From NCBI GenBank assembly GCA_013813765.1, contig JACCRC010000491.1, positions 1 through 50,921 on the forward strand: a DNA stretch of 50,921 nt, read 5' to 3'. The notes under the pieces were generated by a model. It worked only from the letters and a program-made list of their open reading frames with translations. It was not told the DNA's origin and did no database searches. The stretch comes from Deltaproteobacteria bacterium (GTDB lineage Bacteria; Myxococcota_A; Polyangia; Haliangiales; Haliangiaceae). The position numbers and the translations under genes are program-made. Of the stretch, positions 7,257 through 30,204 are shown piece by piece. Within the stretch, counting starts at the first letter, position 1, and each line of letters starts with the position of its first letter.

Positions 7257-7266
7257 CGATCAAGTT

Positions 7267-7283: not shown

Positions 7284-7289
7284 CTAAAC

Positions 7290-8777: not shown

Positions 8778-9697
<920 letters not shown>

Positions 9698-12431: not shown

Positions 12432-12434
12432 GAT
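12429..12434 (+). promoter_or_regulatory. -10-like TAAGAT before pncA
   Basis: The hexamer overlaps the nrtR stop and lies 6 nt before the pncA ATG. No ribosome binding site is present, so pncA may have its own, leaderless transcript in addition to read-through from the operon. Confidence 0.4.
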
Positions 12435-12440
12435 GCGTGT

Positions 12441-13058
12441 ATGCGCGCGCTAGTCCTCGTCGACCTGCAGTACGACTTCTGCCCGGGCGGTGCGCTAGCG
12501 GTGGCGCGTGGTGATGAGACCATTCCGATCGCGAGCCGGCTGATGCCGCACTTCTCGACGATCGTCGCGACGCAGGACTGGCACCCGCCGGGTCACAAGA
12601 GCTTCGCGATGAACAACCCGGGCACGAAAGAGGGCGACGTCATCGACCTCGGCAACACACGGCAGGTGATGTGGCCCGCGCACTGCGTGCAGAACACCCA
12701 CGGCGCGGAGCTGCACGCCGGCCTCGACCGCAGCAAGATCACCGAGGTGTTTCAGAAGGGCACCGATCCGCAGCTCGACAGCTACAGCGGGTTCTTCGAC
12801 AACGGCCACACCAAGGCAACGGGCCTCGCGCAATGGCTCAGCGAGCGCTGGGTCAAGCAGCTCTATATCCTCGGCCTCGCGACCGACTTCTGCGTGAAGG
12901 CCACCGCGCTCGACGCTCGCCAGCTCGGGTTCGACGTGTTCCTCGTCGAGGACGGCTGCCGAGGCGTGGAGCTAAGGCCAGGCGATAGCGAGCGGGCGGT
13001 CGCGGAGATGAGGGGGAGGGGCGTGGCGATCGTCGAGAGCGGCGCGATCGGCGCGTGA
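12441..13058 (+). CDS. pncA: Nicotinamidase
   Basis: A 205-residue cytosolic hydrolase of the isochorismatase-like fold that deamidates nicotinamide to nicotinate, the substrate of PncB. The catalytic triad is visible: Asp8 (V-D-L-Q-Y-D-F), Lys106 (F-Q-K-G) and Cys151 (T-D-F-C-V-K). The metal site is represented by the D-W-H-P-P-G-H segment near residue 50. Length is normal. It begins 9 bp after nrtR with no ribosome binding site; TAAGAT lies 6 nt before the ATG. Together with pncB, prs and nadE it gives the deamidating salvage route; nadD is missing locally and must be elsewhere. Confidence 0.93.
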   Translation: MRALVLVDLQYDFCPGGALAVARGDETIPIASRLMPHFSTIVATQDWHPPGHKSFAMNNPGTKEGDVIDLGNTRQVMWPAHCVQNTHGAELHAGLDRSKITEVFQKGTDPQLDSYSGFFDNGHTKATGLAQWLSERWVKQLYILGLATDFCVKATALDARQLGFDVFLVEDGCRGVELRPGDSERAVAEMRGRGVAIVESGAIGA

Positions 13059-13159
13059 TCTCGACTGATTCTCGCCGTTAACGCTCGGCCGCCTGTACCG
13101 TCTTTGTAAGGGATGCGGCAGCCACGCGCCACTCGCGCAGCGAGACCCGTTACCGGGCC

Positions 13160-13741
13160 ATGCTGAGCTTCGTCCGCCTCATCGCTGCCGTCGCGTTCGT
13201 TCCTCCTCCGGTGCAAGAGCTTGCGGCGGTGGTGACCGCGGCGCGTCGCGGTGATCGCGCGGCGTTCGCGGAGCTGTATCGGCGATTCTCGCGGGCGGTC
13301 CACGGCGTGGTGCTCGCGCGCGTCCAGTATCGCGATGCTGCCGACCTCGTGCAGGAGACGTTCGCGATCGCGCTCGAGCGGTTACCTCAGCTCGGCGACG
13401 TCGCCGCGTTCCCGGGCTGGCTGCTCGCGATCGCTCGCAACCGATCGATCGATCACGTGCGCGGGCAGAAGCCGACCGACGAGCTCTCGGATCTGCCGGT
13501 CGAGGCATCGCGCTCTGCAGAGGTCGCGCAGGTCCTGACCGCGCTTCGTACGCTCCCCGATGCGTACCAGGAGACGATGATCCTCCGCCTGATCGAGGGC
13601 ATGTCGGGTCCGGAGATCGCGGAGCAGACCGGACTGTCGCCGGGCTCGGTGCGTGTCAATCTGCATCGCGGGATGAAGCTGTTGCGCGAGCGCCTCGGCA
13701 TCGTCCCGAGCGGAGAGGAGGCCGATGAGCAAGCCGGATGA
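13160..13741 (+). CDS. ECF-type RNA polymerase sigma factor
   Basis: A 193-residue sigma-70 family protein with region 2 (D-R-A-A-F-A-E-L-Y to S-I-D-H-V-R-G) and region 4 (L-P-D-A-Y-Q-E-T-M-I-L-R to R-G-M-K-L-L-R-E-R-L) but no regions 1 or 3, as expected for the extracytoplasmic-function group. The hydrophobic first 17 residues are unusual; GTG at 13211-13213 is an equally good start and would give a more typical N terminus. It overlaps the next gene by 17 bp, and that gene encodes a membrane FecR-domain protein, the likely regulator of this sigma factor. The target genes are unknown. Confidence 0.88.
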   Translation: MLSFVRLIAAVAFVPPPVQELAAVVTAARRGDRAAFAELYRRFSRAVHGVVLARVQYRDAADLVQETFAIALERLPQLGDVAAFPGWLLAIARNRSIDHVRGQKPTDELSDLPVEASRSAEVAQVLTALRTLPDAYQETMILRLIEGMSGPEIAEQTGLSPGSVRVNLHRGMKLLRERLGIVPSGEEADEQAG

Positions 13742-14720
13742 CTATCTGTGGGATCGATCGGGTCCCGCCGATCCGGACGTGCAGCGGCTCGAAGAGCTGA
13801 TGTCACCGCTCGCGCACGATCGCCCGCTCGACGAGCTGCGGATGAAGCGGCCGAAGCGGCGTGCTCCCTGGATCGCGGGCATCGCGGTCGCGGTCGCGGC
13901 GGCGGCCGTGCTCGTGCTGTGGCTCCGCACGCGGTCCTCGGCTCCTTGCAGTGGCGACGACGGCTTCGCGTTCACCGCGAAGGGCGGCACGGTGGGCTGT
14001 AACGATGGCACGGTGGCGAGCGGGAGGCTGCCGGTCGGTGGAACGCTCGACACCGGCACCGCGTCCGCGCAGATCGTGATCGCGGCGATCGGGACCGCAG
14101 AGCTCGCGCCGGGCACCCGGATCCGGCTCGATGTCAGCGTGGAGAACAAGCGACAGCAGCTGCATCTCGAGCACGGGCGCATGCACGCGCGTGTGACCGC
14201 GCCGCCGCGGATCTTCGCGATCACCACACCGAGCACCGGCGTCACCGATCTCGGGTGCGAGTACACGGTCGAGATCGACGCGAAGGGGAAGGGCTGGATC
14301 GAAGTCCAGTCGGGACGCGTCGAGCTCGAGACCTCGGCGCCTGCGGTGATCGTCGCTCCCGCGTGCACCACCGCGCGGATGCGGGAGGGGAAGCAGCCAA
14401 GCGTGCCGACATACACCGGCGCGACGCCCGCGCTGCGCGCCGCAGTCATCGACTTCGAGGACGGCAAGGCCGGTGCGCTTGCGCGCGTGCTCGAGCTCGC
14501 CACCAAGGATGATGCGATCACGCTCGCAACGCTCGCCGTGCTGGGCGCTGACCGCGAGCTCGTGCTGAGCCGCCTCGCCGTGCTCAGCCCCCCGCCCGGC
14601 GGGATCACCATCCGCGATGCCGTGGCGAATGCCGCCGTGCTCGAGAAGTGGCGCGAGGACATCATCTTGGGGATGGTCGTCGCGAGCCTCGAGTACGACG
14701 GGAAGTGCCCCCAGAACTAG
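13725..14720 (+). CDS. FecR-domain membrane protein, probable anti-sigma partner
   Basis: A 331-residue protein. The cytoplasmic N terminus begins D-Y-L-W-D-R-S-G and continues with D-x-x-V-x-x-L-E-x-L-M, a short pattern I associate with myxobacterial anti-sigma proteins. One membrane segment lies at about 46-66. The periplasmic part (about 100-220) is a FecR-like beta domain (G-T-R-I-R-L-D-V, H-L-E-H-G-R-M-H-A, T-P-S-T-G-V-T-D-L-G-C-E-Y). The last 100 residues are helical. The 17-bp overlap with the ECF gene implies coupled translation and a sigma/anti-sigma pair that senses an envelope signal. No TonB receptor lies directly downstream, so a classic iron-citrate system is not indicated. Confidence 0.8.
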   Translation: MSKPDDYLWDRSGPADPDVQRLEELMSPLAHDRPLDELRMKRPKRRAPWIAGIAVAVAAAAVLVLWLRTRSSAPCSGDDGFAFTAKGGTVGCNDGTVASGRLPVGGTLDTGTASAQIVIAAIGTAELAPGTRIRLDVSVENKRQQLHLEHGRMHARVTAPPRIFAITTPSTGVTDLGCEYTVEIDAKGKGWIEVQSGRVELETSAPAVIVAPACTTARMREGKQPSVPTYTGATPALRAAVIDFEDGKAGALARVLELATKDDAITLATLAVLGADRELVLSRLAVLSPPPGGITIRDAVANAAVLEKWREDIILGMVVASLEYDGKCPQN

Positions 14721-14821
14721 GCGGCGCCGCACAGCGTGCACGGGCGCACGGAGAACGTGGAGAAACCTGCGTTGTTGTGCGGATCTGGGTGATGGCACGC
14801 GCAGTGCTGGTAAGTCTGGGC

Positions 14822-15133
14822 ATGAAGCCCCAAGACCCGAGCAAGGACCCGAACCAGGGCGAAGGAGACAAGCTCTCCGCACGCCACTACAACTCGGAGG
14901 TCCACGACTTCGTCGCTGAAGGCAAGGTCGAGGACGCCGCGCGCGAAGCCGCGGAGTTCGTCGAAGCCGAGCCTGCAGAGGCGAAGCGCGCCGAGCAACG
15001 CGCGAAGCGTGGACCCAACCCGACCAAGGTCTCGGTCGACGAGCTCGTCGCGAAGGGCCGATCGGTCATCGACCGCGTGCGTCCGATCGTCGAGCGTGCC
15101 GTTGACCGCGTCAAATCTCGTTTTTCCAAGTAA
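14822..15133 (+). CDS. Small charged protein of unknown function, stress-type
   Basis: A 103-residue hydrophilic protein. The N terminus (D-P-N-Q-G-E-G-D-K-L-S-A-R-H-Y-N, then F-V-A-E-G-K-V-E-D-A-A-R-E-A-A) matches a pattern I know from small unassigned proteobacterial proteins often found near stress genes. The C-terminal half is basic and helical. ATG at 14822 is preferred over upstream in-frame starts because the family pattern begins just after it. It is followed 24 bp later by a GlsB/YeaQ-type gene, which supports a stress or envelope role. Function unproven. Confidence 0.65.
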   Translation: MKPQDPSKDPNQGEGDKLSARHYNSEVHDFVAEGKVEDAAREAAEFVEAEPAEAKRAEQRAKRGPNPTKVSVDELVAKGRSVIDRVRPIVERAVDRVKSRFSK

Positions 15134-15157
15134 CTCCAGCCTACAGGAACAAGAACC

Positions 15158-15418
15158 ATGTCGATTCTCATGACTCTCATCGTTGGTCTCGTCGTCGGTG
15201 CGCTCGCGAAGCTCGTCATGCCGGGTAAGGACCCGGGCGGCGCGATCGTCACCATCCTCCTTGGTGTCGCCGGTGCGTTCATCGCCGGAGTCCTCGGCAA
15301 GGCGCTGGGCTGGTACGAGGTCGGTGATGGCCCGGGCATCATCGCTTCCGTGATCGGCGCCGTGATCCTGCTGGCGATTTACCGCGCCGTGATCGGGCGG
15401 AATCGCCGGTTCGCGTGA
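15158..15418 (+). CDS. GlsB/YeaQ/YmgE-family stress response membrane protein
   Basis: An 86-residue, very hydrophobic protein with three membrane segments separated by Gly-rich turns. The pattern G-L-V-V-G-A-L-A-K-L-V-M-P-G-K-D-P-G-G near residues 11-29 is the hallmark of the transglycosylase-associated (GlsB) family, whose members are induced by stress but have no proven biochemical activity. Length is exactly typical. The gene lies between two small unknown genes with short gaps, forming a three-gene run. Confidence 0.88.
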   Translation: MSILMTLIVGLVVGALAKLVMPGKDPGGAIVTILLGVAGAFIAGVLGKALGWYEVGDGPGIIASVIGAVILLAIYRAVIGRNRRFA

Positions 15419-15429
15419 GGCAGGGCCCC

Positions 15430-15732
15430 ATGGCCACCGCCACACAGTCTGGCGTGGGGCACGAGCCCCACAACCCGGTTCGCGACGATCGAAAGCTCGC
15501 GCCGACCGAGGATCTGGATCGCGAGCCCGATGGGGTTCCCCACAACGTGGTGGGCCTCACCGCTTTGTTTTCTGTGATGCTCGCGCTGCTCGTCGGATTC
15601 ATGTTCGTGGCGGGCGGCACGATGGTGAAAGTGGCCGCGGTCGTTCTGGTGTTGATCGCAGTGCCCGTTCTCGTCGGTACGCTCCGCCGCAAAGCGGAGC
15701 GGGATCGCGACCACGCGCACCCGTCCCGGTGA
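15430..15732 (+). CDS. Small membrane protein with two transmembrane segments, unknown
   Basis: A 100-residue protein. Residues 1-40 are hydrophilic (H-N-P-V-R-D-D-R-K-L-A-P-T-E-D); two membrane segments follow at about 42-62 and 66-84, and the C terminus is basic. ATG 15430 has GAGG 9 nt upstream; a GTG at 15415 overlapping the previous stop is less likely. It belongs to the run with the GlsB-type gene and may share its stress regulation. No family recognised. Confidence 0.6.
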   Translation: MATATQSGVGHEPHNPVRDDRKLAPTEDLDREPDGVPHNVVGLTALFSVMLALLVGFMFVAGGTMVKVAAVVLVLIAVPVLVGTLRRKAERDRDHAHPSR

Positions 15733-15844
15733 TAGCGTGGGCGTTACGCGGCGCATCGAGCGCCTGCGCACGCCTTCCCCCTAAGCCTTCCGCCTAGTTG
15801 GCGATGTCGGCGTAGGTACTGTTCTTGCGGAGGAGAGCGTCTCG

Positions 15845-17731
15845 ATGTTTGCGGCCCGGACTCTTCTCCTCCTCGCAACAGCCGGGCTCGTGGCCGGCTG
15901 TTCGAGCAGCAACTCGAGCTCCAGGCCCCGGCGGCCGGGAGACGAGAGGCTGAAGGCGATCCATTTCGAGGGCAACAAGCACCTCCGGGAGAAGACGCTC
16001 GTGACCGGCCTCGCCCTCCACCGCACCCTGAAGTACGGACGTGCTCCGGATCCGTACCTGATGTCGGTCGACGCGGAGCGCATCCGTGGCGAGTACCTAC
16101 GGCGCGGCTTCCTCGATGCCGACGTTCGGTCGCGTACCGATCGCAAGGGCGACGACACCACGGTGACCTACACCGTGGAAGAAGGCGTGCGCGCCACCAC
16201 GCGCGTGGTGATCAAGGGTTTGCCGCAGGACGTCCCGCCGGAGAACGTCCGCGCGGTCCTCGCGCTGAAGGATGGCGACCCGTTCAACTACGCCACGTAC
16301 GAGCTCGCGAAGGACCCGCTGAGGATCGTGGTCGAGGATGCGGGCTACGCGCACGTGCAGCTCGAGGCCGAGGTGATCGCCGATCGCGCGAATCACACCG
16401 CGGTGATCGCGCTCACGTACACGCCGGGTCCAAAGTCCGTGTTCGGAAAGGTCGAGATCACCGGCGTCGACGGCAAGCTCCGCGATGCGGTCGAGAGCCG
16501 CATGCAGCTCGCCCCGGGCCAGCCGTATTCCACCTCCGCGCTCGTGGCCTCGCAACAGCAGCTCTACGGGCTCGGGCGGTTCTCCACCGTGCGCGTCCAG
16601 CCGGTGAAGGAAGGCGGCCACTCGGTCATCGACGTGAAGGTCGATGTCGCGGAGGGCTCGAAGCGCGAGATCAAGCTTGGCATCGGCGCCGGTATGGACT
16701 CCGCGAGCTACGAGGCTCGTGCCCGCGCCGGCTACACGATCGTGGGCTGGCCGTTCCAGATGCACACGTTCTCGCTCGACCTGCGGCCCGCGTACGCGCG
16801 GCTCCGCGATACCGGCGAGTACGAGCCGCGCATCCGCGCCATCGCGCGCGACGAGCGCCAGGACCTGTTCTGGACGTACGCGCGAGGCATCGTCGAGGGC
16901 GGGTGGAACTACCTCGCGGTCGAGGCCTACACGAGCTACGGCCCGCGCGCGAAGCTCGGCTTCGAGACCCCGGTCAAGACCGACAAGGTCAAGCTGCGCC
17001 TCGGATGGAGCATCGAGCGTCTCCGCTTCCGTCGGATCAGCCCGCTGATCGACGAGGATCTGCAGGCGCGCATCGGCATCGGCCTCGACGAGATCCAGCA
17101 GGTCGGCGCGTACGAGCAGTCGGTGATCGTTGACCTCCGCGACCATCCGACCAACACGCGCTATGGCGTGTATGGCGAGGTCCGCGTCGCCGAGGGCACT
17201 CCTGCCGCCGGCGGCAAGTACAGCTACATTCAGCTCGTCCCCGAGCTCCGCGGGTACGTGCCGCTCGGTCCCGTGGTGTTCGCGGCGCGGGCGCGCTGGG
17301 GCCGGTTCTTCGGTCAGGACGTGCCGGCGACGGAGCGGTTCTTCTCTGGCGGATCCGTCAGCCAGCGTGGCTTCTCCGAGCGCCGGCTCGCGCCGCAGGT
17401 GCGCGGTGACGTGATGGGCACGACCACCGAGGTGCCGTATGGCGGCACATCGATGTTCGAGAGCGGCGTCGAGACGAGGTTCCCGATCATGAAGATCAAG
17501 GACATGCCGCTCGGCGGCGTGGTGTTCCTCGACGGCGCGGATGTCGTCGAGGAGCCCGCACGGCTCTCGCTCAGCAAGCTCCACCTGGCGTTGGGCTTCG
17601 GCCTTCGCCTGCACACGATCGTTGGACCGCTTCGCTTCGACTTCGGCTACCGCCTCAATCGCACGGGCGGGATGGAGCCCGCGCCCGACGACAAGTTTGC
17701 GTTTCACCTGAGCCTCGGTGAGGCGTTCTGA
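15845..17731 (+). CDS. tamA: TamA/BamA-like outer-membrane barrel protein with lipobox (copy 1)
   Basis: A 628-residue Omp85-family protein. The signal peptide ends L-V-A-G-C (Cys19), a good lipobox, followed by a Ser/Arg-rich linker. Residues about 35-280 form POTRA-like repeats (I-H-F-E-G-N-K-H-L, V-V-I-K-G-L-P, V-E-I-T-G-V-D-G, each followed by helices and an R-G-F or G-R-F turn). The C-terminal half is a beta barrel with the conserved loop-6 motif Q-R-G-F-S-E-R-R-L and the ending G-E-A-F. Together with the TamB gene that overlaps its stop (TGATG), it should help insert proteins or move lipid at the outer membrane. The start follows GGAGGAG. An Omp85 barrel that is also a lipoprotein is unusual. 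Confidence 0.85.
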   Translation: MFAARTLLLLATAGLVAGCSSSNSSSRPRRPGDERLKAIHFEGNKHLREKTLVTGLALHRTLKYGRAPDPYLMSVDAERIRGEYLRRGFLDADVRSRTDRKGDDTTVTYTVEEGVRATTRVVIKGLPQDVPPENVRAVLALKDGDPFNYATYELAKDPLRIVVEDAGYAHVQLEAEVIADRANHTAVIALTYTPGPKSVFGKVEITGVDGKLRDAVESRMQLAPGQPYSTSALVASQQQLYGLGRFSTVRVQPVKEGGHSVIDVKVDVAEGSKREIKLGIGAGMDSASYEARARAGYTIVGWPFQMHTFSLDLRPAYARLRDTGEYEPRIRAIARDERQDLFWTYARGIVEGGWNYLAVEAYTSYGPRAKLGFETPVKTDKVKLRLGWSIERLRFRRISPLIDEDLQARIGIGLDEIQQVGAYEQSVIVDLRDHPTNTRYGVYGEVRVAEGTPAAGGKYSYIQLVPELRGYVPLGPVVFAARARWGRFFGQDVPATERFFSGGSVSQRGFSERRLAPQVRGDVMGTTTEVPYGGTSMFESGVETRFPIMKIKDMPLGGVVFLDGADVVEEPARLSLSKLHLALGFGLRLHTIVGPLRFDFGYRLNRTGGMEPAPDDKFAFHLSLGEAF

Positions 17732-20700
17732 TGTCGGCCCGGAAGTGGATCAAGCGGATCCTCCTCGGTCTCCTGCTGTTCATCGTGGTTGCTGTCGGCG
17801 TCGTGCTCGTGGTCATCCACACGAACTTCGGCCGGGAGCTCATTCGCAAGCAGGTGGAAGCTCGCCTCGACGCCATGTTCCTCGGCGGCGGTACGGTTGG
17901 AAAGATCGAAGGCAGCCCGTTCAACGAGCTGACGATCAAGGACCTCGTGATCAACGGCCCGGATGGTGCGCCGGCGATCACGGCGAAGAAGGTCAAGCTC
18001 GGCATCGGCATCCTGCCGCTGATCTCGAAGAAGGCGATCCTCAGCTCGGTCATCGTCGAGGACCTCGACGTGAGGCTCGCGCGCGATCAGGACGGCAACC
18101 TCCAGTTCGAATACCTGTTGAGGCCCACACCCGACGAGCCGGCATGGAGCGTGTCGATTCCCACGGTCGAGATCCATCGCGCGCACGTCGCGTACGACAC
18201 CGGCACCGAGTGGCTGAACTTCGACAACCTCGAGATCATCGGCGGCGCGAGCATGATGTTCGGCAGGCCGCTCACCGTGAACCTGTCGGTGCGCGGCGCG
18301 TTGCGCGAGCGTGCCGTGGGTCTCTCCCTCGATGCGGTCGTCAAGGTCGACCACAACGTGATCACCGTTCCGTCGCTGATCGCGCAGGCCGGCATCGTTG
18401 TCATCGCCGGCGTGGCGCTCCGCGTGGAGCTCCCGGTGGAGCCGACGGCGATGACCGCGCCGATGACAACGCAGCGCGTCCCGCCGCACCCCTTGATCTC
18501 CGGCACGCTGATCGTCAACGCGCCGGCGCTCGGCGTCGAGCTCCTCGTTCCGGGTACGAGGCCACCGACCGATATCGCCCTCGCGATGAACGTCGACGCG
18601 GTCGCGCCGTTCACGAAGGTGTCCTTGCTGGGGCAGCTCGGCGTCACCCCCGTCCGCGCGCTCGTCGACGTGAACCTCGGGATGAAGTCCGCGAAGGGCA
18701 TGGTCTCGTCGGGTCTGCTCGACCTGACGCTGCTCACCGGCGGGCGGATCACGGGCACCGGCGCAGGCGTCGTGCTGTTCGAGGCAGGGATGCCCGAGGA
18801 CGACGGGCTCCCGAAGGCGGCCGGCATCGCGACGGTCTGGGGCGACATCGCGGATGTCCCCGATGCCCGCGCGTCGATCGCGTTTCACACCGGCGGAGAC
18901 AAGCTCCGCACGGTGGTCAGCGCGGTCGGCAAGGGCATGAAGGCGACGGTCGAGGGTCAGATCACGATGGCCGGCGATCGGTTGAACCTCGACCGCAGCA
19001 CGATCGTCGCCTCGTCGTCCGATCCGGCGAGATCGACCAATGGCAAGGCGCCCGTGCATGGCGCGGTGTCGATGCGGTTCGCTGCGAGCGGCGTGCTCCT
19101 CCCGCAGCCGAACCTCGCGGTCTCCGGCCGGATGGATGGCCAGAGGCTGCGCTTCCAGGACCTGCAGGCCTCGAAGATGAAGCTCGCGATCGAGGCGCGT
19201 GGCTTGCCGCGGCAGCCGAGCGGGAAGGCGGAGCTCGAGCTCGACGGGATCGTGCGCGGCAACATGCACCTCGGTCAGCTCCGGGTGACCGCGGGCAGCC
19301 GCAGCGACGGTAGGATCGCGGTCTCCGCGCGTTCGAAGCCGAAGCAGAACCCATGGCTGTTCGACGTGGACGCGCTCGTCACGCCGCCCGGTCGCGGCGA
19401 GATCATCGCGATCGACCTCGTCAACCACCACATCCGCGCAGGTGCAGGCGGGGATTGGTACGGAACGACGGGGCACATCGAGATCGGGCCGCGCAAGATC
19501 ACCGTGCGCGACCTGTCGACCAAGAGCCAGGCGGGCGCGGTGTCGCTCGCCGGTCAGCTCGATCGACTCAACGGCGACTTCGCCGCGAAGGTCGACACCA
19601 CGTCCCTCACGCTCGACAACATCACTCCGCTGTACCGCGGCACGATCGACGCTCATGTCGACATCGTGCGCAAGCGCGGCCAGCTCTCAGGCACCGCCGA
19701 CGTGAAGGCCTCGGCGTTCGCGGTCGGCACGTCGATCCACACGTTCGATCTGGCCGCGAAGGTAACGGCCGGCGTCGACAAGCTGGTCGTCGACGCGAGC
19801 GCGTCGAGCGCGGACTTCGGCAGCGCGAAGATCGCGCTCGACGTCGATCCTCCAAAGGACATCACGAACGTTGACCAGTGGAAACGGCTCCACCGCAAGG
19901 TGATCCGGACCGGCCAGGTCTCGTTCGAGGGGCTGAACGTCGGCAAGCTCGCGAAGCTCGCCGGCCTCGAGGAGCAGATCCAGAGCGGCGTGGTCGACGG
20001 TGACCTGCAGTTCTCCACGGATGGCACCGACGGGACGATCCAGTTCAAGGACCTCATGGTCCCCGCGCTCAAGGGCACGGGGCTAGTCCAGGGCGAGCTC
20101 CGGATCGTGCAGACCGCGCCCGACGAGGTGCAGCCCACGCTGACCGGCCGCATCGACACGGTCGGTAACTTCGCGGTCACCGCCAAGCTCGGCATGCCCG
20201 ACCACCTGTTCGACCCGGCGGCGTGGCAGGCGCTCGGTCCGAAGGCGATGCGCGGCGCGACCGCTCGCATCGACAACGTCGCGGTCGATCCTGCGCAGCT
20301 CGAGCGGTTCGGCATCGTGACGACGATGCGCGGCTCCTTGAACGTCGCGGCCGAGATCACCGAGGCGTTCCGCAGCGTGCAGGTCGCCGTCGACGTGAGG
20401 GACCTGCGCGGCTCGCCGATCGCGCAACCGGTGCAGGCGCACTTCGCGGCAGCGTTCGACGAGAAGGGTGGCAACACCACGCTCGCGATCCGCTCCGGGA
20501 AGATCACGCTGCTCGACATGAAGGGCGCGATCCCGATGACACTCACGGAGGTGCGCAAGAATCCGAGGGGGCTCGGCGCCGCTCCGCTACACATCATGGC
20601 GACGCTGCCGCAGGCGCCTGCGCCGCAGCTGCTCGCGCTGTTCGGCCGCAGCGAGATCACCGGCGGCACGATCAGCGGCACCGTCAACATCACCGGTACG

Positions 20701-22200
20701 ATCGACAAGCCATTGGTGGTCGGGAAGATCACCGGCACGAACCTCTCGGTCCCGCCGGGGCCGAGAAACCGGCCGGTCAAGACGATCGAGTCGCTGGTCA
20801 TCGACGGGTCGTACGACGGCGTGTACGTGAAGCTGAAAGTCGATGGTGTCCAGAAGGGCGGCACGCTGAAGCTCGTCGCCGAGGCGAATCCCGACGAGCT
20901 TGGCAAGGCGACCGTGTCGATCGACGCGAAGGACTTCGACCTCGCGCCGCTGCTCGCGTTCGCACCCGGCCCGGCCGGCGGCGGCGCGGGTCGCCTCGAC
21001 GCGAAGATCCAGGTCAACGGGCTCGATCCCGGGTCGATGCGGATCGCGGGCGACTTGCATCTGGACAACGCCCGCATCCCGCTGACGCCCGAGCTCGGTA
21101 CGCTGCGACGCGCAAAGATCGACATCGCGATCGACGACCGCGTGATGAAGATCAACATGACCGGCCGGCTCGGCGGCGGTGATGTCAACCTGGTGTCGAC
21201 GTTCCAGCTCGACGGCAGCGCGATGCCCGTGAGCGGCGACGTCGCTCTCAAGCTGCGCAAGGTCTCGCCGATCGGAACGATCGAACCGGACATCACCGCC
21301 GACGTCACCGCGAAGCTGAAGCACAGCGGCGATCAGTGGTACGCCGACGTGTTCATCAAGAACGGTCAGGTCAACATCCCGAAAGGCCGCACGGACGCGC
21401 TGGATCCGATCGGCGCGCCGAACGACATGGTGTTCATGTCACCGGACGGCCACGTCATCCGCAAGCTGGAGAAGTCGGAGGGGGCCCCGCGGCACGCGTC
21501 GCTGATCGCGAACATCACGCTGTACTCGACGCACGTCATCTCCGAGGACATGCGCACGCTGATCAAGGGAAAGGTCACGGTCCGCGCCGATGCCCACAAC
21601 GTCGGCATCGTCGGCAGCATCCACGCGGATCGCGGCGACCTCGATCTGTTCGGGCGTCGCTACCGGGTCGAGCAGGCAGCCGTGCACTTCGACGGCACGA
21701 CGGATCCCTTGCTCGACATCCGGATCACGCATGACTTCTCCGAGGTCTCGACGATCACCGTTGTACGCGGCCGGCTGAGCAAGCCCGAGCTGATCATGTC
21801 GAGCGACCCGGGCATCTACTCCCAGGGCCAGCTGCTCGGCTTCCTCCTCGGCGGAGAGCCGGGCGGCGACCCCCGGAACGCTCGCGACACGGCCACCTCG
21901 GTCGGCGCCTCGTTCGTGGCGAACAGGATCGGTGGCTACGTCAAGAAGGCGCTGCCGCTCGACATCGACGTGCTGCGCTACGAGGCCGCGAGCGCCTCCA
22001 GCGGCTCCGCCGTGCTGATCGGCAAGTGGCTGACGCGGTCGCTGTTCGTCGCGTACCGGCAGCACCTCGAGGCCCGCGTCGACGAGAACCGCGTCGAGGG
22101 CGAGCTGGAGTACTGGCTGTCTCGCCGGGTGTCGGTGGAGGCCATGGCCGGCGACCGCGGCCATAACGGCGTCGACCTCCTCTGGCGCAAGCGGTACTAA
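17731..22200 (+). CDS. tamB: TamB-like translocation/assembly module protein (copy 1)
   Basis: A 1489-residue AsmA-like protein. An N-terminal membrane anchor (about 7-30) leads into a very long beta-rich periplasmic region, consistent with the hydrophobic-groove bridge structure of TamB/YhdP proteins. The C terminus carries the TamB (DUF490) domain: D-L-F-G-R-R-Y-R-V near 1307, then D-P-G-I-Y-S-Q-G-Q-L-L-G-F-L-L-G-G-E-P-G-G-D. The last residues resemble a strand that pairs with TamA. The start overlaps the tamA stop by one base, so the pair is translationally coupled. Known TamB proteins help deliver outer-membrane proteins and move phospholipid between membranes. Confidence 0.88.
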   Translation: MSARKWIKRILLGLLLFIVVAVGVVLVVIHTNFGRELIRKQVEARLDAMFLGGGTVGKIEGSPFNELTIKDLVINGPDGAPAITAKKVKLGIGILPLISKKAILSSVIVEDLDVRLARDQDGNLQFEYLLRPTPDEPAWSVSIPTVEIHRAHVAYDTGTEWLNFDNLEIIGGASMMFGRPLTVNLSVRGALRERAVGLSLDAVVKVDHNVITVPSLIAQAGIVVIAGVALRVELPVEPTAMTAPMTTQRVPPHPLISGTLIVNAPALGVELLVPGTRPPTDIALAMNVDAVAPFTKVSLLGQLGVTPVRALVDVNLGMKSAKGMVSSGLLDLTLLTGGRITGTGAGVVLFEAGMPEDDGLPKAAGIATVWGDIADVPDARASIAFHTGGDKLRTVVSAVGKGMKATVEGQITMAGDRLNLDRSTIVASSSDPARSTNGKAPVHGAVSMRFAASGVLLPQPNLAVSGRMDGQRLRFQDLQASKMKLAIEARGLPRQPSGKAELELDGIVRGNMHLGQLRVTAGSRSDGRIAVSARSKPKQNPWLFDVDALVTPPGRGEIIAIDLVNHHIRAGAGGDWYGTTGHIEIGPRKITVRDLSTKSQAGAVSLAGQLDRLNGDFAAKVDTTSLTLDNITPLYRGTIDAHVDIVRKRGQLSGTADVKASAFAVGTSIHTFDLAAKVTAGVDKLVVDASASSADFGSAKIALDVDPPKDITNVDQWKRLHRKVIRTGQVSFEGLNVGKLAKLAGLEEQIQSGVVDGDLQFSTDGTDGTIQFKDLMVPALKGTGLVQGELRIVQTAPDEVQPTLTGRIDTVGNFAVTAKLGMPDHLFDPAAWQALGPKAMRGATARIDNVAVDPAQLERFGIVTTMRGSLNVAAEITEAFRSVQVAVDVRDLRGSPIAQPVQAHFAAAFDEKGGNTTLAIRSGKITLLDMKGAIPMTLTEVRKNPRGLGAAPLHIMATLPQAPAPQLLALFGRSEITGGTISGTVNITGTIDKPLVVGKITGTNLSVPPGPRNRPVKTIESLVIDGSYDGVYVKLKVDGVQKGGTLKLVAEANPDELGKATVSIDAKDFDLAPLLAFAPGPAGGGAGRLDAKIQVNGLDPGSMRIAGDLHLDNARIPLTPELGTLRRAKIDIAIDDRVMKINMTGRLGGGDVNLVSTFQLDGSAMPVSGDVALKLRKVSPIGTIEPDITADVTAKLKHSGDQWYADVFIKNGQVNIPKGRTDALDPIGAPNDMVFMSPDGHVIRKLEKSEGAPRHASLIANITLYSTHVISEDMRTLIKGKVTVRADAHNVGIVGSIHADRGDLDLFGRRYRVEQAAVHFDGTTDPLLDIRITHDFSEVSTITVVRGRLSKPELIMSSDPGIYSQGQLLGFLLGGEPGGDPRNARDTATSVGASFVANRIGGYVKKALPLDIDVLRYEAASASSGSAVLIGKWLTRSLFVAYRQHLEARVDENRVEGELEYWLSRRVSVEAMAGDRGHNGVDLLWRKRY

Positions 22201-22224
22201 GCGCGTGATCATCCCCGCTGGGGG

Positions 22225-24066
22225 ATGTTCTCGAGGCTCGTAATCTGCGCGTTGCTGGCGGCCTTGCTCGGCTGCGGGACGAAGCCGCGCGTGCACAAGC
22301 CGGGCGAGGAGTGGCTCGCGTCCGTGAAGCTCGAGGGCAACGCCTCGATCGATAGCGACGACCTCGTGCCGGGGCTCGCGCTCAGGCGGACCCTCGCCGC
22401 GGGGCGGGCGCTCGACCCGTATCAGCTCACGGTAGATCGCGACCGGTTGCGCGCGGCGTACCTGAAGCGCGGCTTCTTCGAGGCGACCGTCACGCCGCGT
22501 GTCGAGCTGAAGAGCGGTGCGCAGCACGTGGTGTTCGTGATCGTCGAGGGCAAGCGTGCGCGGCTCCAGGTCGTGATCCAGGGGCTGCCGCCGGAGGTCC
22601 CCGTCGCCAAGGCGAGGAAGCTGATCCCGATCAAGGATGGTGCAGCGTTCGACTACGACGTGTATGACGCCGCGAAGCTCCCGCTGGTCTCGATGGTCGA
22701 GAACGCGGGCTACCCGCATGTGCGGATGGACGCGGCGGTGCTCGCCGACAAGGCGCGCGGGGTGGCGACGGCGCGGTTCGCGATCGAGCCCGGTGTGCGC
22801 GCTGCGTTCGGGCCGATCTCGATCGCCGGCACCGAGGGTCAGCTCGCGGATGCGATCGCGAATCGCCTCACGTTCCGGAGCGGCGACGTGTACTCCGCGG
22901 AGGCGCTCGCCGAGTCGCAGAGCTCGATCTACGAGCTGGGGCGCTTCTCGACGGTGCGGATCGAGCCCGACCGGAACGCGGGCGACACGGTCCCGGTGAA
23001 GGTCTCGGTCTCGCTCGCCAACCGTCACGAGCTCAAGCTCGGCGGCGGCCTCGGCTACGATCCGATCAACCTCGAGGTCCGCGGGCGCGCCGGCGGCTCG
23101 TACGTCAGCGCGAACTACCCACTGTGGACGTTCTCCGCGGACCTGCGTCCCGCGATCACCGTGGAGCACGACCTCAGCAACCCGCAGGAGAAGATCCGCG
23201 CGCTGGTCAGTGCACACCGGCTCGACATGTTTCGGCCGCGGATCCGCGGCGAGCTCGAGGTGTCGGCCGACTACCTCACCATCGAGGCGTACACATCGAA
23301 GGGCCCGCGGTTTCGCGCGGGTGTCAGCGCGCCCCTCGGTGCACCGTGGTTGCAGCTCCGCACCGGCTGGCTGATCGAGTACATCTTCTTCACGCAGATC
23401 GAGGTGCTCCAGCCAACGCGGGGCCAGCTCGGCCTCGACGAGAATCAGCGGCGCGGTGCTTACGAGCTCTCGCTCTCCGCCGACAAGCGGGACAACTCGC
23501 TCGAGCCGCACCGTGGCATCTACGGGCAGCTCCGCGCGACCTACGGAACGCGATACGCCGGCGGCGCGCTCGATTACATCCAGCTCACGCCCGAGCTACG
23601 CGGCTACGTGCCGCTGCCGCGCAACATCGTGCTCGCCGCACGCGCACGCGTGGGTGCGATCATCGGCAAGGTCCCGGTCACCGAGCGGTACTTCGCGGGC
23701 GGGGCGAACAGCCACCGCGGGTTCCCCGAGCGCCGCCTCGCCCCGACCGCGCCTGGCATAGATGGGCAAGTCGTGATCGGAGGCGCCGGCTCGGTCGAGA
23801 CCGGCCTCGAGCTGCGAATTCCGCTGGGCAACATCGGAGCTCCGTTCGGAACCGAGCTGTTCCTCGACGGTGGCGACGTCGTGCGGACGCCGAAAGTCCT
23901 CGATCCCACGAACCTCCACTGGGCCGTCGGGGTCGGACTGTGGGTGAAGTTCTTCGGACTCAAGCTGCGCGGTGACGTCGGGTTCCGGCTGAACCGGACC
24001 GGCACGGGCGAGCCCGGGGCCGGGGAGAATTTCGCGTACCACCTCGGCGTCGGAGATGCGTACTGA
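22225..24066 (+). CDS. tamA: TamA/BamA-like outer-membrane barrel protein with lipobox (copy 2)
   Basis: A 613-residue paralogue of the 15845 gene. It has a signal peptide ending A-L-L-G-C (Cys17), POTRA-like repeats to about residue 265, and a barrel with H-R-G-F-P-E-R-R-L and the terminus G-D-A-Y. The two copies share runs such as R-T-L-x-x-G-R-A-x-D-P-Y and G-x-L-x-D-A but differ along most of their length, so the duplication is old. GGGG just before the ATG is the likely ribosome binding site. It starts 24 bp after the first tamB and overlaps the second tamB (TGATG). Confidence 0.85.
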   Translation: MFSRLVICALLAALLGCGTKPRVHKPGEEWLASVKLEGNASIDSDDLVPGLALRRTLAAGRALDPYQLTVDRDRLRAAYLKRGFFEATVTPRVELKSGAQHVVFVIVEGKRARLQVVIQGLPPEVPVAKARKLIPIKDGAAFDYDVYDAAKLPLVSMVENAGYPHVRMDAAVLADKARGVATARFAIEPGVRAAFGPISIAGTEGQLADAIANRLTFRSGDVYSAEALAESQSSIYELGRFSTVRIEPDRNAGDTVPVKVSVSLANRHELKLGGGLGYDPINLEVRGRAGGSYVSANYPLWTFSADLRPAITVEHDLSNPQEKIRALVSAHRLDMFRPRIRGELEVSADYLTIEAYTSKGPRFRAGVSAPLGAPWLQLRTGWLIEYIFFTQIEVLQPTRGQLGLDENQRRGAYELSLSADKRDNSLEPHRGIYGQLRATYGTRYAGGALDYIQLTPELRGYVPLPRNIVLAARARVGAIIGKVPVTERYFAGGANSHRGFPERRLAPTAPGIDGQVVIGGAGSVETGLELRIPLGNIGAPFGTELFLDGGDVVRTPKVLDPTNLHWAVGVGLWVKFFGLKLRGDVGFRLNRTGTGEPGAGENFAYHLGVGDAY

Positions 24067-27000
24067 TGCGGCGCACGTGGCGATGGATCCGGCGAATCGT
24101 CGTCGGGCTCCTCGCGACCGTGATCGTCGCGGTCGCGGTGGTGCTCATCCTGCTGCACACCGCGTGGGGGCGGAACTTTCTGCGCGGCCGGATCGAGGCC
24201 GCATTGCAGGCGCCGTTCCCCGGCTCGTCGATCGGCTCGCTGAGCGGCAGCGTGCTCGGCACGGTCACGCTGCACGACATCTCGCTCGTCGCGGCCGATG
24301 GACATCCGATCGCGACGGTCGACGCGCTCGACGTCGATCTCGCGCTGCTGCCTCTGTTCGGCCGGACCGCACGCATCGAGCACCTGGTGGCCACCGGCGT
24401 GACGGTGCACGCGCACCCGGCGCCACCGCCACGCGACGATGGGAAGCCACCGCCGGCGTGGACGGTGGAGATCGTGAACGCGGAGATCCACGACGCCACC
24501 GTGATCGACGAGCACGACGGCGTCACGCTGAGCAATGTCGACGTCTCGGCCTCCGCTCGCATCGACGTGCGCGGTCCGATCATCGCGATCGCAACGCTCG
24601 GAGGAGACTGGAAGGGCCGCCCGTTCGGTGGCCTGGCGAGCCTCACGATCCGTCGAGACCTCGCCTTCGACGTGGGCGCCGGCTTCCCGAAACCGCAGTT
24701 CCGCGATGTCGCGGGCTTCGTGGCCGCCGGTAGCGGCGGCGCGTCACTCGTCGGAAGCCTGGGCTCGATGGAGGCGCGCACGGGCTCATTGGTCGCGCGC
24801 CTGCCGGCGTCGGATGTCCTGCGGCTCCCACTCGAGGGGCGCGTGGGCGGGGATGCGATCGTGTTGGTGTCGGCCGACGGGGATCGACTCAGCGCGACCG
24901 TCACGATCGGCGGCACGCGTGTCGATTCGGTCGCGATCATCGACGTCCAGAAGCAATCCGTGCGTGGTGTCCTGGCGACCAACGAGGTCGACTTGGGAGT
25001 TGCGACGGGCCAGCGAGTCAGCGGCAGGGGGCGCGTCATGATCGCCGGCGTGCTCGAGCGGGATCGAGTGCGCGCGACGGTACTGACGTCGGGTGCGATT
25101 CCGAACTATCCGGCAGGCGATTCGCTGATCGCGATCGATGCACCGCTGGACCGCTCGCAGAGCGGAATCGAGATGTTCAGCGGCGGCGACGTCATGCTGT
25201 TTTCTCGCGGCGAAGGCGAGCTGCTGCTCTCTGCCGTGGGCTCCGTGAAGCGTGTCGAGAGGACGTTCCTCGTCGAGAGAGCGCATGTTGGTATCGCGAT
25301 CGGCGATCCGGTCGCGGCGAGCGGTGGGCGCGCTCCGGTGCGCGGCACGTTCACCGCGGAGGTCTCCGCGAGCGGGCCGCTCACGGCGCTCGTGCTGCAG
25401 GGCAACGTGCGCGGTACGCGACTCAGCTTCGAGCGGGCCAGCGCGCGTGCACTGACCGGCACGTTCCGCGTCACGATCGACAAGGTCCCGATGTACACGG
25501 CGCACGTCGCGCTCGACGGCGTCGTCAACGCCGGCAAACCGATCGGGTCGGTAGTCGCCGACGCGCGCAACCGCGCAAATGGAAGTATCGAGATCCGCGC
25601 GCGTGCACGCTCGGCCACGATGCCGGTCACGGCCACGATCAGTGGCGTCGTCACTCCGGGCGCGACGACGACCGACGCCGTGCTCGGATCACACAGCTTC
25701 GAGACCCCGGCGGGGGTGTGGGCAGGCACTGGTGGGCGCGTGCGCATCGGGAAGCGAGACATCGTCGTCACCGGCATCCGGACCACGCAGGGCGAGGCGT
25801 GGGCGAAGGTCGGCGCCACGGTCGGTCGCGGAACCGGCGCCCTCGCCGCGGACATCGAGGCGCATGCGCTGCCGCTGCGCGCGATCGATCCGGCGTACTC
25901 GGGCACGGTCAGCGGTGCGCTGACGCTCGCGCGCAAGCGCGGACGCTGGTCTGGCAGCGGCATGCTGAGCGGGCAGGGCGTCGTCGTGTCGCCCGAGGCT
26001 CCGCCGGTCGATGCCGGCATCACGCTCGGCGTCGACGGGCGGCGGGTGGCGATCGCGATCAACGCCTCGAACGCCGAGCTCGGCGGCGCACGCGTCGCGA
26101 TCGAGGTGGACAGTCCCGTGGATCTGCTGGACGTGCCGGCGTGGATGCGCGTCGCGCGAAGCGACCTGCACGCCGTGGTGATCGGCGTGGACCACGTCGA
26201 CCTCGCCGCCGTCAGCAAGGGCAAGACCACGGGCTTCCTCGACGGCACCCTCGAGATCCGTGAGGGCGTTCCGAGCGGGACGCTGTCCGTGCGCGGGGTG
26301 CCGACGCCTCTTGGCCAGGCCGACGCGGACATGACGCTGTCGCTCACCGATGTCGGGTTTGTCGATGCGACCGCGAAGGCGACCGTCGGCACCGTCGGTG
26401 CCGCCACGCTCGGCGCGCGGATCGCGATCCCGGATCGCATCTTCGATCCCGCGGCTTGGAAGGCGCTCGGCACGCGCGTCGTCGATCGCGCGATCGCCGA
26501 GGCGAAGGACATCGCGATCGGCCCGGAGCTGTTCGCCGCGCTGAAGATCGATGCGCCGTACCGCGGTAAAGCGAGCATCAAGGTCGACGTCGGCGCGGGC
26601 GGAAGCTCGGCGACGGTCGGCGTCGACGTGCACGGAGTGACCGGTGGGGCGATCGTCCGCGGCGTCGACGCCCATCTTCAGGCGACCGTCGACTCGAGCG
26701 GGACCCGCGCAGAGCTGGGGATCGCGGAAGGCGGTGTCGTCCTCGCGTCGCTGCCGGATGCACGAACGCCGGTGACGCTCGCCGGCTGGATCGCCGATCC
26801 ACGCGCGGCAATCGCGGCTCCGGTGTCGGGCACGCTGTCGATCGGCAAGCTCGATGTCGCGCGCGTGCTCGCGATCGTGGGTCGCACCGATGTTCGCGCG
26901 GGCACGATCGCTGGCGCGGTCACGGTCGGCGGTACGATCGGAAGGCCGACGGCGAAAGGCTCGCTGGAGCTCCAGAACGTACAGGTCGCCCCGCGGTACT

Positions 27001-28433
27001 CGGCCAAGACACCGCCCGAGCTGACCGCGCTCCATATCGATGCGAGCTGGGACGGCGCGGCGGGGCAGATCAAGGTCAAGGGTGACGAGGCGGGGAAGGG
27101 AACGCTCGAGGTCGAGGTGCGAGGGCGCCCGGATGATCTGATGTCGGTGGTCGCTCGCGTCGACATCAAGAAGTTCGATGTCGCGCCGATCGTCGTGTTC
27201 CTCCCGGGCCGGCTCGCCGGTGCGAGCGGTCGCGTCGAGGCGGACCTCACGTTCACCGGCATCGATCCCGTGAACGGCAAGGTCCGCGGCTCGCTCGAGC
27301 TCATCGAGGCGCGCGTTCCGATCACACCGACGATCGGCACGCTGCGCAGGGCGAACGCGAAGCTCGAGCTGCGCGACGACGGCATCACCGCGAAGCTCGA
27401 CGGCCGGCTCGGCGCGGGCGCGGTGAAGCTGACGGCAACGTCGGATTCCGGCGGGCTGGACACGATCGTCGACGCGACGCTTTCGAAGATCTCGCCGATC
27501 GGCGCGCTGCAGCCGATCATCAGCTCCACGCTGCACGCGACGCTGCGCCGCGACGGCTTCGTGTGGACCGGCAAGGCTACGGTCTCGCGGACGTCGGTCG
27601 TGATGCCGGCGCAGGGCGGGAACGCACTGCTCGATGCCGATGCACCACCGGATCTGATCTTCGTCGACCTTCCGATCCCGCGCATCCCGATCGCGCCCGG
27701 CGCGCCCGAGAACCCATTCCTGATCGTCGCGGTGGACATCCGGCCGGTCGAGATCCGCGTGCCCGAGTTTGCGGTCGATGCGGTTGCCGCCGGCCGGGTC
27801 ACGCTGAAGGTCGGTGAAACCGTCGGTCTCGACGGCCAGATCTTCGTCGAGCGCGGCAGTGCGGATCTCTTCGGCCACCGCTACCGCGTGGAGCTCGGCC
27901 AGGTCATGTTCGACGGCACGCTCAACGGCATCCTCGACCTCAAGCTGGCGCACGACTTCCCCGACGTCACGACCTTCGTGCGGTTCTCCGGCCGGCTCAA
28001 CGAGCTAGCGAACCGAGAGCCGGAGTTCACGAGCTCGCCCGGCATCTACACACCGGGCCAGCTGCTCGGGTTCTTCCTCGGAGGCGAGCCCGGCGGCGAT
28101 CCGTCGAAGCAGACGCGCGAGGCCGCGGCCGGATTCGGCGCATCGTTCGCGTCGAGCGCGATCGGCAAGCGGCTGAAGAAGTACCTCCCGCTGAACCTCG
28201 ACGTGTTGCGCTGCGACCCGGGCGCGGGCACGAGTGGGGCGAGCTGCACGCTCGGCAAGTGGCTCACGCACAAGGTGTTCCTCTCGTACAAGCAGCGTCT
28301 CGAGTCGCGCTACGACCAGAACACCGGCGAGGGCTCGTTCGAGTGGCACTTCAAGCCGAGCTGGGTGCTCGAGGTGACCGGCGGCGATCGCAACTACTGG
28401 GGCACCGACGCGCTGTGGCGCCGACGCTGGTGA
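24066..28433 (+). CDS. tamB: TamB-like translocation/assembly module protein (copy 2)
   Basis: A 1455-residue paralogue of the 17731 gene. It has a membrane anchor (about 10-31), a long AsmA-like beta-rich body, and the DUF490 C-terminal domain with D-L-F-G-H-R-Y-R-V and S-P-G-I-Y-T-P-G-Q-L-L-G-F-F-L-G-G-E-P-G-G-D. Like copy 1 it ends in a W/Y-rich segment with G-D-R. The first base of its ATG is the last base of the tamA stop. The tail differs from copy 1 by two Cys (R-C-D-P-G and S-C-T-L) that could form a disulfide. It closes the 12.6-kb tamA-tamB-tamA-tamB block; the next gene is convergent, 5 bp away. Confidence 0.88.
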   Translation: MRRTWRWIRRIVVGLLATVIVAVAVVLILLHTAWGRNFLRGRIEAALQAPFPGSSIGSLSGSVLGTVTLHDISLVAADGHPIATVDALDVDLALLPLFGRTARIEHLVATGVTVHAHPAPPPRDDGKPPPAWTVEIVNAEIHDATVIDEHDGVTLSNVDVSASARIDVRGPIIAIATLGGDWKGRPFGGLASLTIRRDLAFDVGAGFPKPQFRDVAGFVAAGSGGASLVGSLGSMEARTGSLVARLPASDVLRLPLEGRVGGDAIVLVSADGDRLSATVTIGGTRVDSVAIIDVQKQSVRGVLATNEVDLGVATGQRVSGRGRVMIAGVLERDRVRATVLTSGAIPNYPAGDSLIAIDAPLDRSQSGIEMFSGGDVMLFSRGEGELLLSAVGSVKRVERTFLVERAHVGIAIGDPVAASGGRAPVRGTFTAEVSASGPLTALVLQGNVRGTRLSFERASARALTGTFRVTIDKVPMYTAHVALDGVVNAGKPIGSVVADARNRANGSIEIRARARSATMPVTATISGVVTPGATTTDAVLGSHSFETPAGVWAGTGGRVRIGKRDIVVTGIRTTQGEAWAKVGATVGRGTGALAADIEAHALPLRAIDPAYSGTVSGALTLARKRGRWSGSGMLSGQGVVVSPEAPPVDAGITLGVDGRRVAIAINASNAELGGARVAIEVDSPVDLLDVPAWMRVARSDLHAVVIGVDHVDLAAVSKGKTTGFLDGTLEIREGVPSGTLSVRGVPTPLGQADADMTLSLTDVGFVDATAKATVGTVGAATLGARIAIPDRIFDPAAWKALGTRVVDRAIAEAKDIAIGPELFAALKIDAPYRGKASIKVDVGAGGSSATVGVDVHGVTGGAIVRGVDAHLQATVDSSGTRAELGIAEGGVVLASLPDARTPVTLAGWIADPRAAIAAPVSGTLSIGKLDVARVLAIVGRTDVRAGTIAGAVTVGGTIGRPTAKGSLELQNVQVAPRYSAKTPPELTALHIDASWDGAAGQIKVKGDEAGKGTLEVEVRGRPDDLMSVVARVDIKKFDVAPIVVFLPGRLAGASGRVEADLTFTGIDPVNGKVRGSLELIEARVPITPTIGTLRRANAKLELRDDGITAKLDGRLGAGAVKLTATSDSGGLDTIVDATLSKISPIGALQPIISSTLHATLRRDGFVWTGKATVSRTSVVMPAQGGNALLDADAPPDLIFVDLPIPRIPIAPGAPENPFLIVAVDIRPVEIRVPEFAVDAVAAGRVTLKVGETVGLDGQIFVERGSADLFGHRYRVELGQVMFDGTLNGILDLKLAHDFPDVTTFVRFSGRLNELANREPEFTSSPGIYTPGQLLGFFLGGEPGGDPSKQTREAAAGFGASFASSAIGKRLKKYLPLNLDVLRCDPGAGTSGASCTLGKWLTHKVFLSYKQRLESRYDQNTGEGSFEWHFKPSWVLEVTGGDRNYWGTDALWRRRW

Positions 28434-29079: not shown

Positions 29080-30204
29080 ATGTCGGCTCCTGATCTCTCG
29101 TCTCTCCGCGACCGCATCGAAGCCGTCGACCGCCAGATCATCGCCCTGCTCGCGGAGCGACTGAAGATCGTCGAGGAGGTTGCCGCTGCGAAGCTCGCGA
29201 GCGCGTCGCCGTTTCGCGACAAGCAGCGCGAGGAGCTGCTGCTGCAGCGGCTGCGCGCGCAGGCGACGGCGGCCGGCCTCGATCCCCACCAGGTGGAGCG
29301 GATGTACCGCGTGGTGATGGACATGTCCGTCGCGCACCAGGAGGCGACCGTGCGCAGCCGCGAGGACGCACCGCTGCGGATCACGTACCAGGGCGTCGAG
29401 GGTAGCTACAGCCACCTCGCCGCGCAGAAGCGGTATGCGGGCCGCACCGGCGGCGCACTGCTCAGCGGCCATGACACGTTTCGCGGTGCGGCGGAGGCGG
29501 TGCTCGCGGGCACCGCGGACCTCGCGCTTCTGCCGATCGAGAACACCACGGCCGGCAGCATCAACGAGACCTACGACCTGCTCGCCGGCGGCGGGCTCCA
29601 CATCACCGGCGAGGTGGTCAGCGCCATCGAGCACTGCTTGCTCGCGTTGCCGGGTGTCACGCTCGACGAGCTCCGCGTCGTGATGTCGCATCCGCAGGCG
29701 CTCGCGCAATGCGCGGGCTTCTTCTCCACGCACCCGCAGCTCAAGCCGCGCGCGGAGGTCGACACCGCCGGGAGCGCGCGCAAGGTGGGCGAGGGCAACG
29801 ACCGTACGCACGCGGCGATCGCGAGCTCGGCGGCTGCGAAGCGCTACGGGCTCGCGGTGCTCGCGACCGGCATCCAGACGACCGCGGGCAATGCGACGCG
29901 GTTCGTGGAGATCGGCCTCCGCCCGGCACCGGTGCCCGAGGGCTCGTCGGTGAAGACGTCGCTCGTACTCTCGCTCGCGGATCGTCCCGGTGCGCTCGGC
30001 GAGATCCTGATGCGGTTCGCGGGGCGCGGGCTGTCGCTCACGAAGCTCGAGTCGCGCCCGATCCCCGACGCGCCGTTCACGTACCGGTTCTACGCCGACG
30101 TGCTCGGCCACGTCGCGAGCGAGCCGTTTCACGCCGCGCTGGATGACATCCGTCCGCTGACCACCGAGCTGCGGATCCTCGGCACCTATCCAGCAGCGCA
30201 GTAG
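29080..30204 (+). CDS. pheA: Bifunctional chorismate mutase/prephenate dehydratase
   Basis: A 374-residue cytosolic enzyme of phenylalanine synthesis: chorismate to prephenate to phenylpyruvate. Residues 1-90 are an AroQ-type chorismate mutase (L-R-D-R-I-E-A-V-D-R-Q-I-I-A-L-L). Residues about 95-275 are prephenate dehydratase, with G-V-E-G-S-Y-S-H-L-A-A, P-I-E-N-T-T-A-G-S-I and the catalytic G-N-A-T-R-F motif. Residues about 285-370 are an ACT regulatory domain with the L-E-S-R-P phenylalanine-binding motif, implying feedback inhibition. Length is normal. The start is leaderless-looking, and a TonB receptor gene follows after 23 bp. Confidence 0.94.
   Translation: MSAPDLSSLRDRIEAVDRQIIALLAERLKIVEEVAAAKLASASPFRDKQREELLLQRLRAQATAAGLDPHQVERMYRVVMDMSVAHQEATVRSREDAPLRITYQGVEGSYSHLAAQKRYAGRTGGALLSGHDTFRGAAEAVLAGTADLALLPIENTTAGSINETYDLLAGGGLHITGEVVSAIEHCLLALPGVTLDELRVVMSHPQALAQCAGFFSTHPQLKPRAEVDTAGSARKVGEGNDRTHAAIASSAAAKRYGLAVLATGIQTTAGNATRFVEIGLRPAPVPEGSSVKTSLVLSLADRPGALGEILMRFAGRGLSLTKLESRPIPDAPFTYRFYADVLGHVASEPFHAALDDIRPLTTELRILGTYPAAQ

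Follow-up and report, generated by a model that had tools for sequence, protein, structure and literature searches.

Proteobacteria usually have one tamA–tamB gene pair, which encodes the translocation and assembly module (TAM). In the TamAB complex, as determined by cryo-electron microscopy, the last strand of TamB pairs with the first barrel strand of TamA to give a hybrid barrel; phospholipid transport by this complex has been reported (PMC12800296). A lipidated TamA of Bacteroidetes/Chlorobi, formerly called the Omp85 lipoprotein (PMC4104836), was named TamL in PMC4494059, which reports that lipidated TamA is almost confined to these groups and was acquired in a single transfer from the Beta/Gammaproteobacteria line. 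TamL and TamL2 of Flavobacterium johnsoniae are described as predicted lipoproteins, with TamL essential; TamL2–TamB2 is reported from 20 of 30 Bacteroidota, and lipidation of TamL seems crucial, as attempts to obtain a C21G TamL failed (PMC12045153). Tethering of the POTRA domains by the lipid anchor was proposed for TamL in 2014. Here we analyse contig JACCRC010000491.1 (assembly GCA_013813765.1, a Deltaproteobacteria bacterium and soil myxobacterium; 50,921 nucleotides, referred to as the window), in which two tamA–tamB pairs stand in direct tandem and both TamAs are predicted lipoproteins. We consider it probable that they form two paralogous TAM-like bridges, derived from an old duplication of the whole module, with TamAs lipidated through signal peptidase II and with a specialised second copy.

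Two TamA–TamB pairs in tandem

Four open frames, all on the + strand, fill positions 15845–28433 in the order tamA1–tamB1–tamA2–tamB2, with the following parts:

15845..17731, + strand: tamA1, TamA-like Omp85 protein of 628 amino acids, predicted lipoprotein
15845..15898, + strand: TamA1 signal peptide, residues 1–18 (N-terminal reading and lipobox rule)
15899..15901, + strand: TamA1 lipobox Cys codon (C19), the only Cys in TamA1
15944..16660, + strand: three TamA1 POTRA domains, residues 34–272 (AlphaFold2 model)
16661..17728, + strand: TamA1 16-strand barrel, residues 273–628 (Pfam, AlphaFold2 model and structure match)
17731..22200, + strand: tamB1, 1489 amino acids, N-terminal membrane anchor, TamB domain at 21550–22197
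22201..22224, no strand: inter-module gap of 24 bp between tamB1 and tamA2
22225..24066, + strand: tamA2, 613 amino acids, predicted lipoprotein, three POTRA domains and barrel
22225..22272, + strand: TamA2 signal peptide, residues 1–16 (N-terminal reading and lipobox rule)
22273..22275, + strand: TamA2 lipobox Cys codon (C17)
24066..28433, + strand: tamB2, 1455 amino acids, TamB domain at 27519–28427

At both tamA/tamB junctions the tamA stop and the tamB start share one base within TGATG. The open frames, these junctions and the Pfam assignments thus bear out the original prediction, made from the sequence alone, of a tamA–tamB–tamA–tamB order with one-base overlaps; its claim that the pairs differ greatly holds as well, with 44% identity between TamA1 and TamA2 and 31% between TamB1 and TamB2. 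A recent tandem copy or an assembly artefact is ruled out by this divergence and by the presence of the layout in five other assemblies.

The TamA proteins match Pfam Omp85 (108.6 bits for TamA1 and 98 bits for TamA2) and POTRA, all over the curated cut-offs, and the TamB domain was found at the C terminus of TamB1 (104.7 bits) and TamB2 (86.8 bits; cut-off 22.4). AlphaFold2 models built with alignments of relatives have mean predicted local distance difference test (pLDDT) scores of 94.3 for TamA1 and 93.7 for TamA2, and each contains three POTRA domains and 16 barrel strands (counted from the listed elements), as in TamA, and not the five POTRA domains of BamA. The whole TamA1 model matches Pseudomonas aeruginosa TamA (8us2; template modelling score (TM) 0.66/0.74; Foldseek, VIA-align) and, by the same tools, BamA from about BamA residue 174 on, which we take to be the later BamA POTRAs; in the structure search the Z values for TamA and BamA lie within about 2 of each other and do not rank TamA above BamA. 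A sequence search of solved structures with TamB1 gave no match at E ≤ 0.1. A hydrophobic helix at the N terminus and a TamB domain at the C terminus are retained by both TamBs of the window.

A conserved lipoprotein signal on TamA

Signal types were assigned by reading the N termini, together with a strict PROSITE-type lipoprotein rule. Both TamAs have the predicted lipobox (LVAG before C19 in TamA1 and ALLG before C17 in TamA2), preceded by a short hydrophobic segment that has an early arginine, and both satisfy the rule. A sample of 16 genomes of the genus, including that of the window, holds 25 TamA genes in 14 genomes; with L062 and L068 left out (genes cut by contig ends), a Cys closes the hydrophobic stretch in 23 of 23 readable N termini (in L069 the start codon is cut off), which argues that the window lipoboxes did not arise by chance. 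The original prediction had named a Cys that is not conserved in homologues as grounds for its rejection, and this count gives none.

Sixty further TamA-like loci from the phylum read as 52 lipoprotein and 8 signal peptidase I (SPase I) signals (L147–L151, L154, L162 and L172), with the cut N termini of L042 and L044, outside the genus, left out of such counts. These loci were picked by hand from the match listing with BamA-looking matches excluded, so that the proportion of 52 in 60 should not be taken as an unbiased estimate, and a TamB-profile match next door is present for only part of them. A lipoprotein signal is also present in all four of the more remote TamA-like family members that were read (L226–L229). 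Lipid-anchored TamA is apparently common in Myxococcota, judging from these N termini.

Ordinary SPase I signals may contain a Cys by chance, as do four BamA signals of the phylum (L183, L185, L186 and L188), in which a Cys inside the hydrophobic stretch matches a loose pattern; these belong to a control set of 19 BamA loci from the same phylum, all read as SPase I signals. It is very unlikely that the TamA lipoboxes are of this sort, as the TamA Cys ends the hydrophobic stretch, 8–19 residues ahead of POTRA1, in 76 of 76 measured rows, and the strict rule accepts 20 of the 23 TamAs from the genus, compared with 1 of the 19 BamAs. The rule also accepts 35 of the 60 phylum rows and none of the 9 rows to which reading assigned an SPase I signal; in an 83-row alignment the C19 column holds a Cys in 76 rows.

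In enterobacteria an Asp at +2 after the lipidated Cys is an inner-membrane signal, and it may act likewise in Myxococcota. The +2 residue is Ser/Gly in the two window copies, and none of the 76 rows assigned a lipoprotein signal by reading has Asp there; in these rows the Cys lies 8–19 residues (median 13) from POTRA1, and the linker has 16 residues in TamA1 and 13 in TamA2. An Asp-free +2 position and a short linker fit a putative outer-membrane anchor, close to the membrane that holds the barrel. Different membranes for the two TamA anchors, which had been suggested, find no support in these +2 residues and similar linkers.

Another Myxococcota lineage of lipobox TamA-like proteins has PGxT after the linker (L129, L131, L142, L167, L169, L175 and L226–L229), and several of its members are without a TamB-profile match next door.

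Relation to TamL, TamA and BamA

The likeness to TamL–TamB and TamL2–TamB2 of Bacteroidota (PMC12045153, PMC4494059 and PMC4104836) extends to the lipoprotein signal with its conserved Cys (predicted here from the rule and its conservation), three POTRA domains, a 16-strand barrel and a TamB partner. This shared architecture, with tamB as a neighbour, would suit true TamL proteins acquired from Bacteroidota, and TamL is sister to the Myxococcota clade in the best tree, at weak support (56/66) and on a poorly supported Omp85 backbone. Such an acquisition is nevertheless most improbable. Seven TamLs sampled from Bacteroidota replicons form a clade of their own (100/100) with the window TamAs outside it, and the lipidated Myxococcota TamAs form a separate clade of 30 rows (98/93; L040, with its C terminus cut, was left out of the tree). 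The NCBIfam lipo_TamL model gives TamA1 50.1 bits and TamA2 54.2 bits, far under its cut-off of 400 and compared with 820 and 773 bits for Prevotella TamLs, and its best match in the 59 rows scanned has an E value of only 1.1e-33. The gene order also differs, being tamB–tamL in the two Bacteroidota loci seen (L220 and L223) and tamA–tamB in the window, where, in a different phylum, two pairs stand in direct tandem. Because the window proteins lie outside the TamL clade and below the TamL cut-off, we call them lipidated TamA of Myxococcota. The lipidated Myxococcota clade includes L071, with an SPase I signal, and a single row with a lipobox, L140, is placed outside this clade, together with SPase I rows. 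Grouping of TamL with gammaproteobacterial TamA was not rejected by the approximately unbiased test (p-AU 0.373 with two TamLs and 0.451 with seven), nor was a placement of two TamLs with all six proteobacterial TamAs (p-AU 0.238).

With the TAM of Proteobacteria the window pairs have in common the tamA–tamB order and coupling, three POTRA domains, the barrel and the TamB domain; each tamA has tamB as its neighbour, as the TGATG junctions and Pfam TamB matches indicate. They differ in carrying a predicted lipobox where proteobacterial TamA has an SPase I signal, and they score far under the NCBIfam cut-offs for ATportTamA (90.3 bits for TamA1 and 73.5 for TamA2; cut-off 625) and ATportTamB (63.4 bits for TamB1 and 54 for TamB2; cut-off 825). 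BamA, including the three myxobacterial BamA groups described in PMC4104836, shares the Omp85 barrel, and the window POTRAs align to its later POTRAs. Unlike BamA, the window TamAs have three POTRAs rather than five, a lipobox and a tamB neighbour, and they score below the OM_YaeT cut-off of 297 (163.4 bits for TamA1 and 141.9 for TamA2). The window genome (8.1 Mb, 562 contigs, 88% complete) encodes a separate BamA-like protein (an 802-amino-acid frame on contig C22) and more distant Omp85 relatives, as well as three TamB-domain proteins, two of these at the TAM locus. A third Omp85/TamB neighbourhood in this genome (L047; contig C48, about 4500–8900) has a 1733-amino-acid TamB-domain frame followed by a 1140-amino-acid Omp85 frame, in tamB-first order and with an Omp85 far from TamA by profile (126 bits).

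As TamL is lipidated and TamL2–TamB2 is a second copy in Bacteroidota, lipidation and duplication are not new in kind. What looks new is the spread of lipidated TamA in a phylum beyond the range reported for TamL, together with the tandem duplication of the pair. Our literature searches, with supplements and subscription papers outside their reach, found no paper on lipidated TamA in Myxococcota.

Duplication and history of the locus

Quick searches for a TamA tree (91 Omp85 rows) and a TamB tree place the 24 TamA rows of this type in one group (support 100), split into A1 (97) and A2 (84), and divide TamB into B1 and B2 (98 on both sides) with matching subgroups, for example L054 with L060 and L061 with L063. 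These matching divisions show that tamA and tamB were duplicated together, and neither tree gives a sign that partners were swapped between the pairs. Since L022, from another genus of the family, falls inside A2, the duplication predates the split of the two genera. The phylogenies that had been proposed as a check on the original prediction thus point to one duplication of a whole TamA–TamB module before these genera separated.

In relatives, NAD synthase and isochorismatase genes flank one end of the locus and pheA flanks the opposite end; the window holds two of these conserved flanking genes:

12441..13058, + strand: isochorismatase-family gene, left flank
29080..30204, + strand: pheA (chorismate mutase–prephenate dehydratase), right flank

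Six of the 16 genus genomes have A1–B1–A2–B2 on one contig (G000, G004, G006, G010, G013 and G015), with a partial set in G003 and G007; contig ends prevent a verdict on the layout in G005 and G012. The pairs are separated in G001, G002 and G014, and only A1–B1 is left in G008, between NAD synthase and pheA. At the isochorismatase–pheA site, G001 holds only A2–B2, and G014 and G008 only A1–B1. The ancestral arrangement, isochorismatase–[A1B1A2B2]–pheA, can still be recognised; in some relatives entire pairs were later relocated or lost. In L055 (G015; 4144–9047 and 10723–17123) each TamB is split over two frames, through sequencing errors or gene decay.

Copy 2 is less conserved, and by identity appears to evolve faster, in the pairs compared: between the window and L053, copies 1 and 2 are 60% and 58% identical for TamA and 53% and 44% for TamB, and between the window and L054 57% and 48% for TamA and 47% and 35% for TamB. 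The faster change fits specialisation or relaxed need alike. A dosage duplication, kept as redundant pairs without specialisation while copy 2 slowly decays, would explain this lower conservation and the retention of only A1–B1 of this kind in G008. We regard it as rather unlikely, given that G000, G004, G006, G010 and G013 carry open, nearly full-length versions of both copies, that the split between the copies is old (the 44% and 31% identities), that a good fold is predicted for TamA2 (pLDDT 93.7) and that A2 and B2 have stayed together in G001, G002 and G014, where the pairs lie apart. The persistence of two pairs, each inherited with its own partner, suggests two bridges with partly different tasks.

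Proposed working of the two bridges

The genes, domains, predicted fold, conserved lipobox, paired duplication and locus history are established by computation, and the working proposed here is modelled on the described TamAB complex. As both pairs keep the TamB N-terminal helix and C-terminal TamB domain, each could form such a bridge. TamB would be held in the inner membrane by its helix, span the periplasm and dock through its TamB domain on its own TamA, forming a hybrid barrel. TamA would be the 16-strand barrel in the outer membrane, its N terminus cut by signal peptidase II and lipidated. The linker (16 and 13 residues here, 8–19 in relatives) would pin POTRA1 near the outer membrane's inner leaflet, and the anchor may limit the swing of the POTRA arm. 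By analogy, phospholipids would be carried outward along the bridge, and/or the bridge would assist the folding of some outer-membrane proteins, with copy 1 keeping a more constrained, probably original role and copy 2 probably specialised.

Several observations weigh against this interpretation. None of the window proteins reaches the NCBIfam cut-offs for TamA, TamL, BamA or TamB, and the strict lipoprotein rule misses 21 of the 79 rows read as lipidated. SPase I signals were read in nine Myxococcota rows, one of them the order-level relative L071, and in L040, a TamA from the same family; lipidation is therefore not universally needed. Two genomes of the same genus, G009 (86% complete) and G011 (97% complete), gave no TamA match at E ≤ 1e-30, and the system is thus dispensable. 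G011 also had no pheA match at E ≤ 1e-60, and pheA of G009 lies on a short contig with no tamB beside it.

More broadly, we judge the chances evenly balanced that lipid-anchored TamA is the rule in Myxococcota and a third lineage beside proteobacterial TamA and TamL, that POTRA1 anchoring either has more than one origin or is an ancestral trait that Proteobacteria lost, and that the two Kofleriaceae bridges share the supply of the outer membrane. A second lipidated lineage across Myxococcota would bear on the one-transfer history of TamL given in PMC4494059, and on the reason for the apparent importance of TamL lipidation in F. johnsoniae. Lipidated and unlipidated TamAs within one phylum provide natural pairs in which the role of the anchor can be studied, and duplicated, separately inherited pairs offer a test case for TAM specialisation.

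Neighbouring genes

A scan for sigma-70 consensus promoters found 0 against 0.9 expected, a consensus that is uninformative for this bacterial group. Upstream of the quartet (13160–14720) lie genes for an extracytoplasmic function (ECF)-type sigma factor and a FecR-domain protein, a possible candidate regulator of the TAM operon. FecR is also found upstream in L054, L056, L058 and L067, and L053 seemingly has no room for it. Positions 30228–32975 encode a TonB-dependent receptor, directly followed at 32988–35177 by a Ser/Thr kinase with PEGA and a weak TonB_C-like match.

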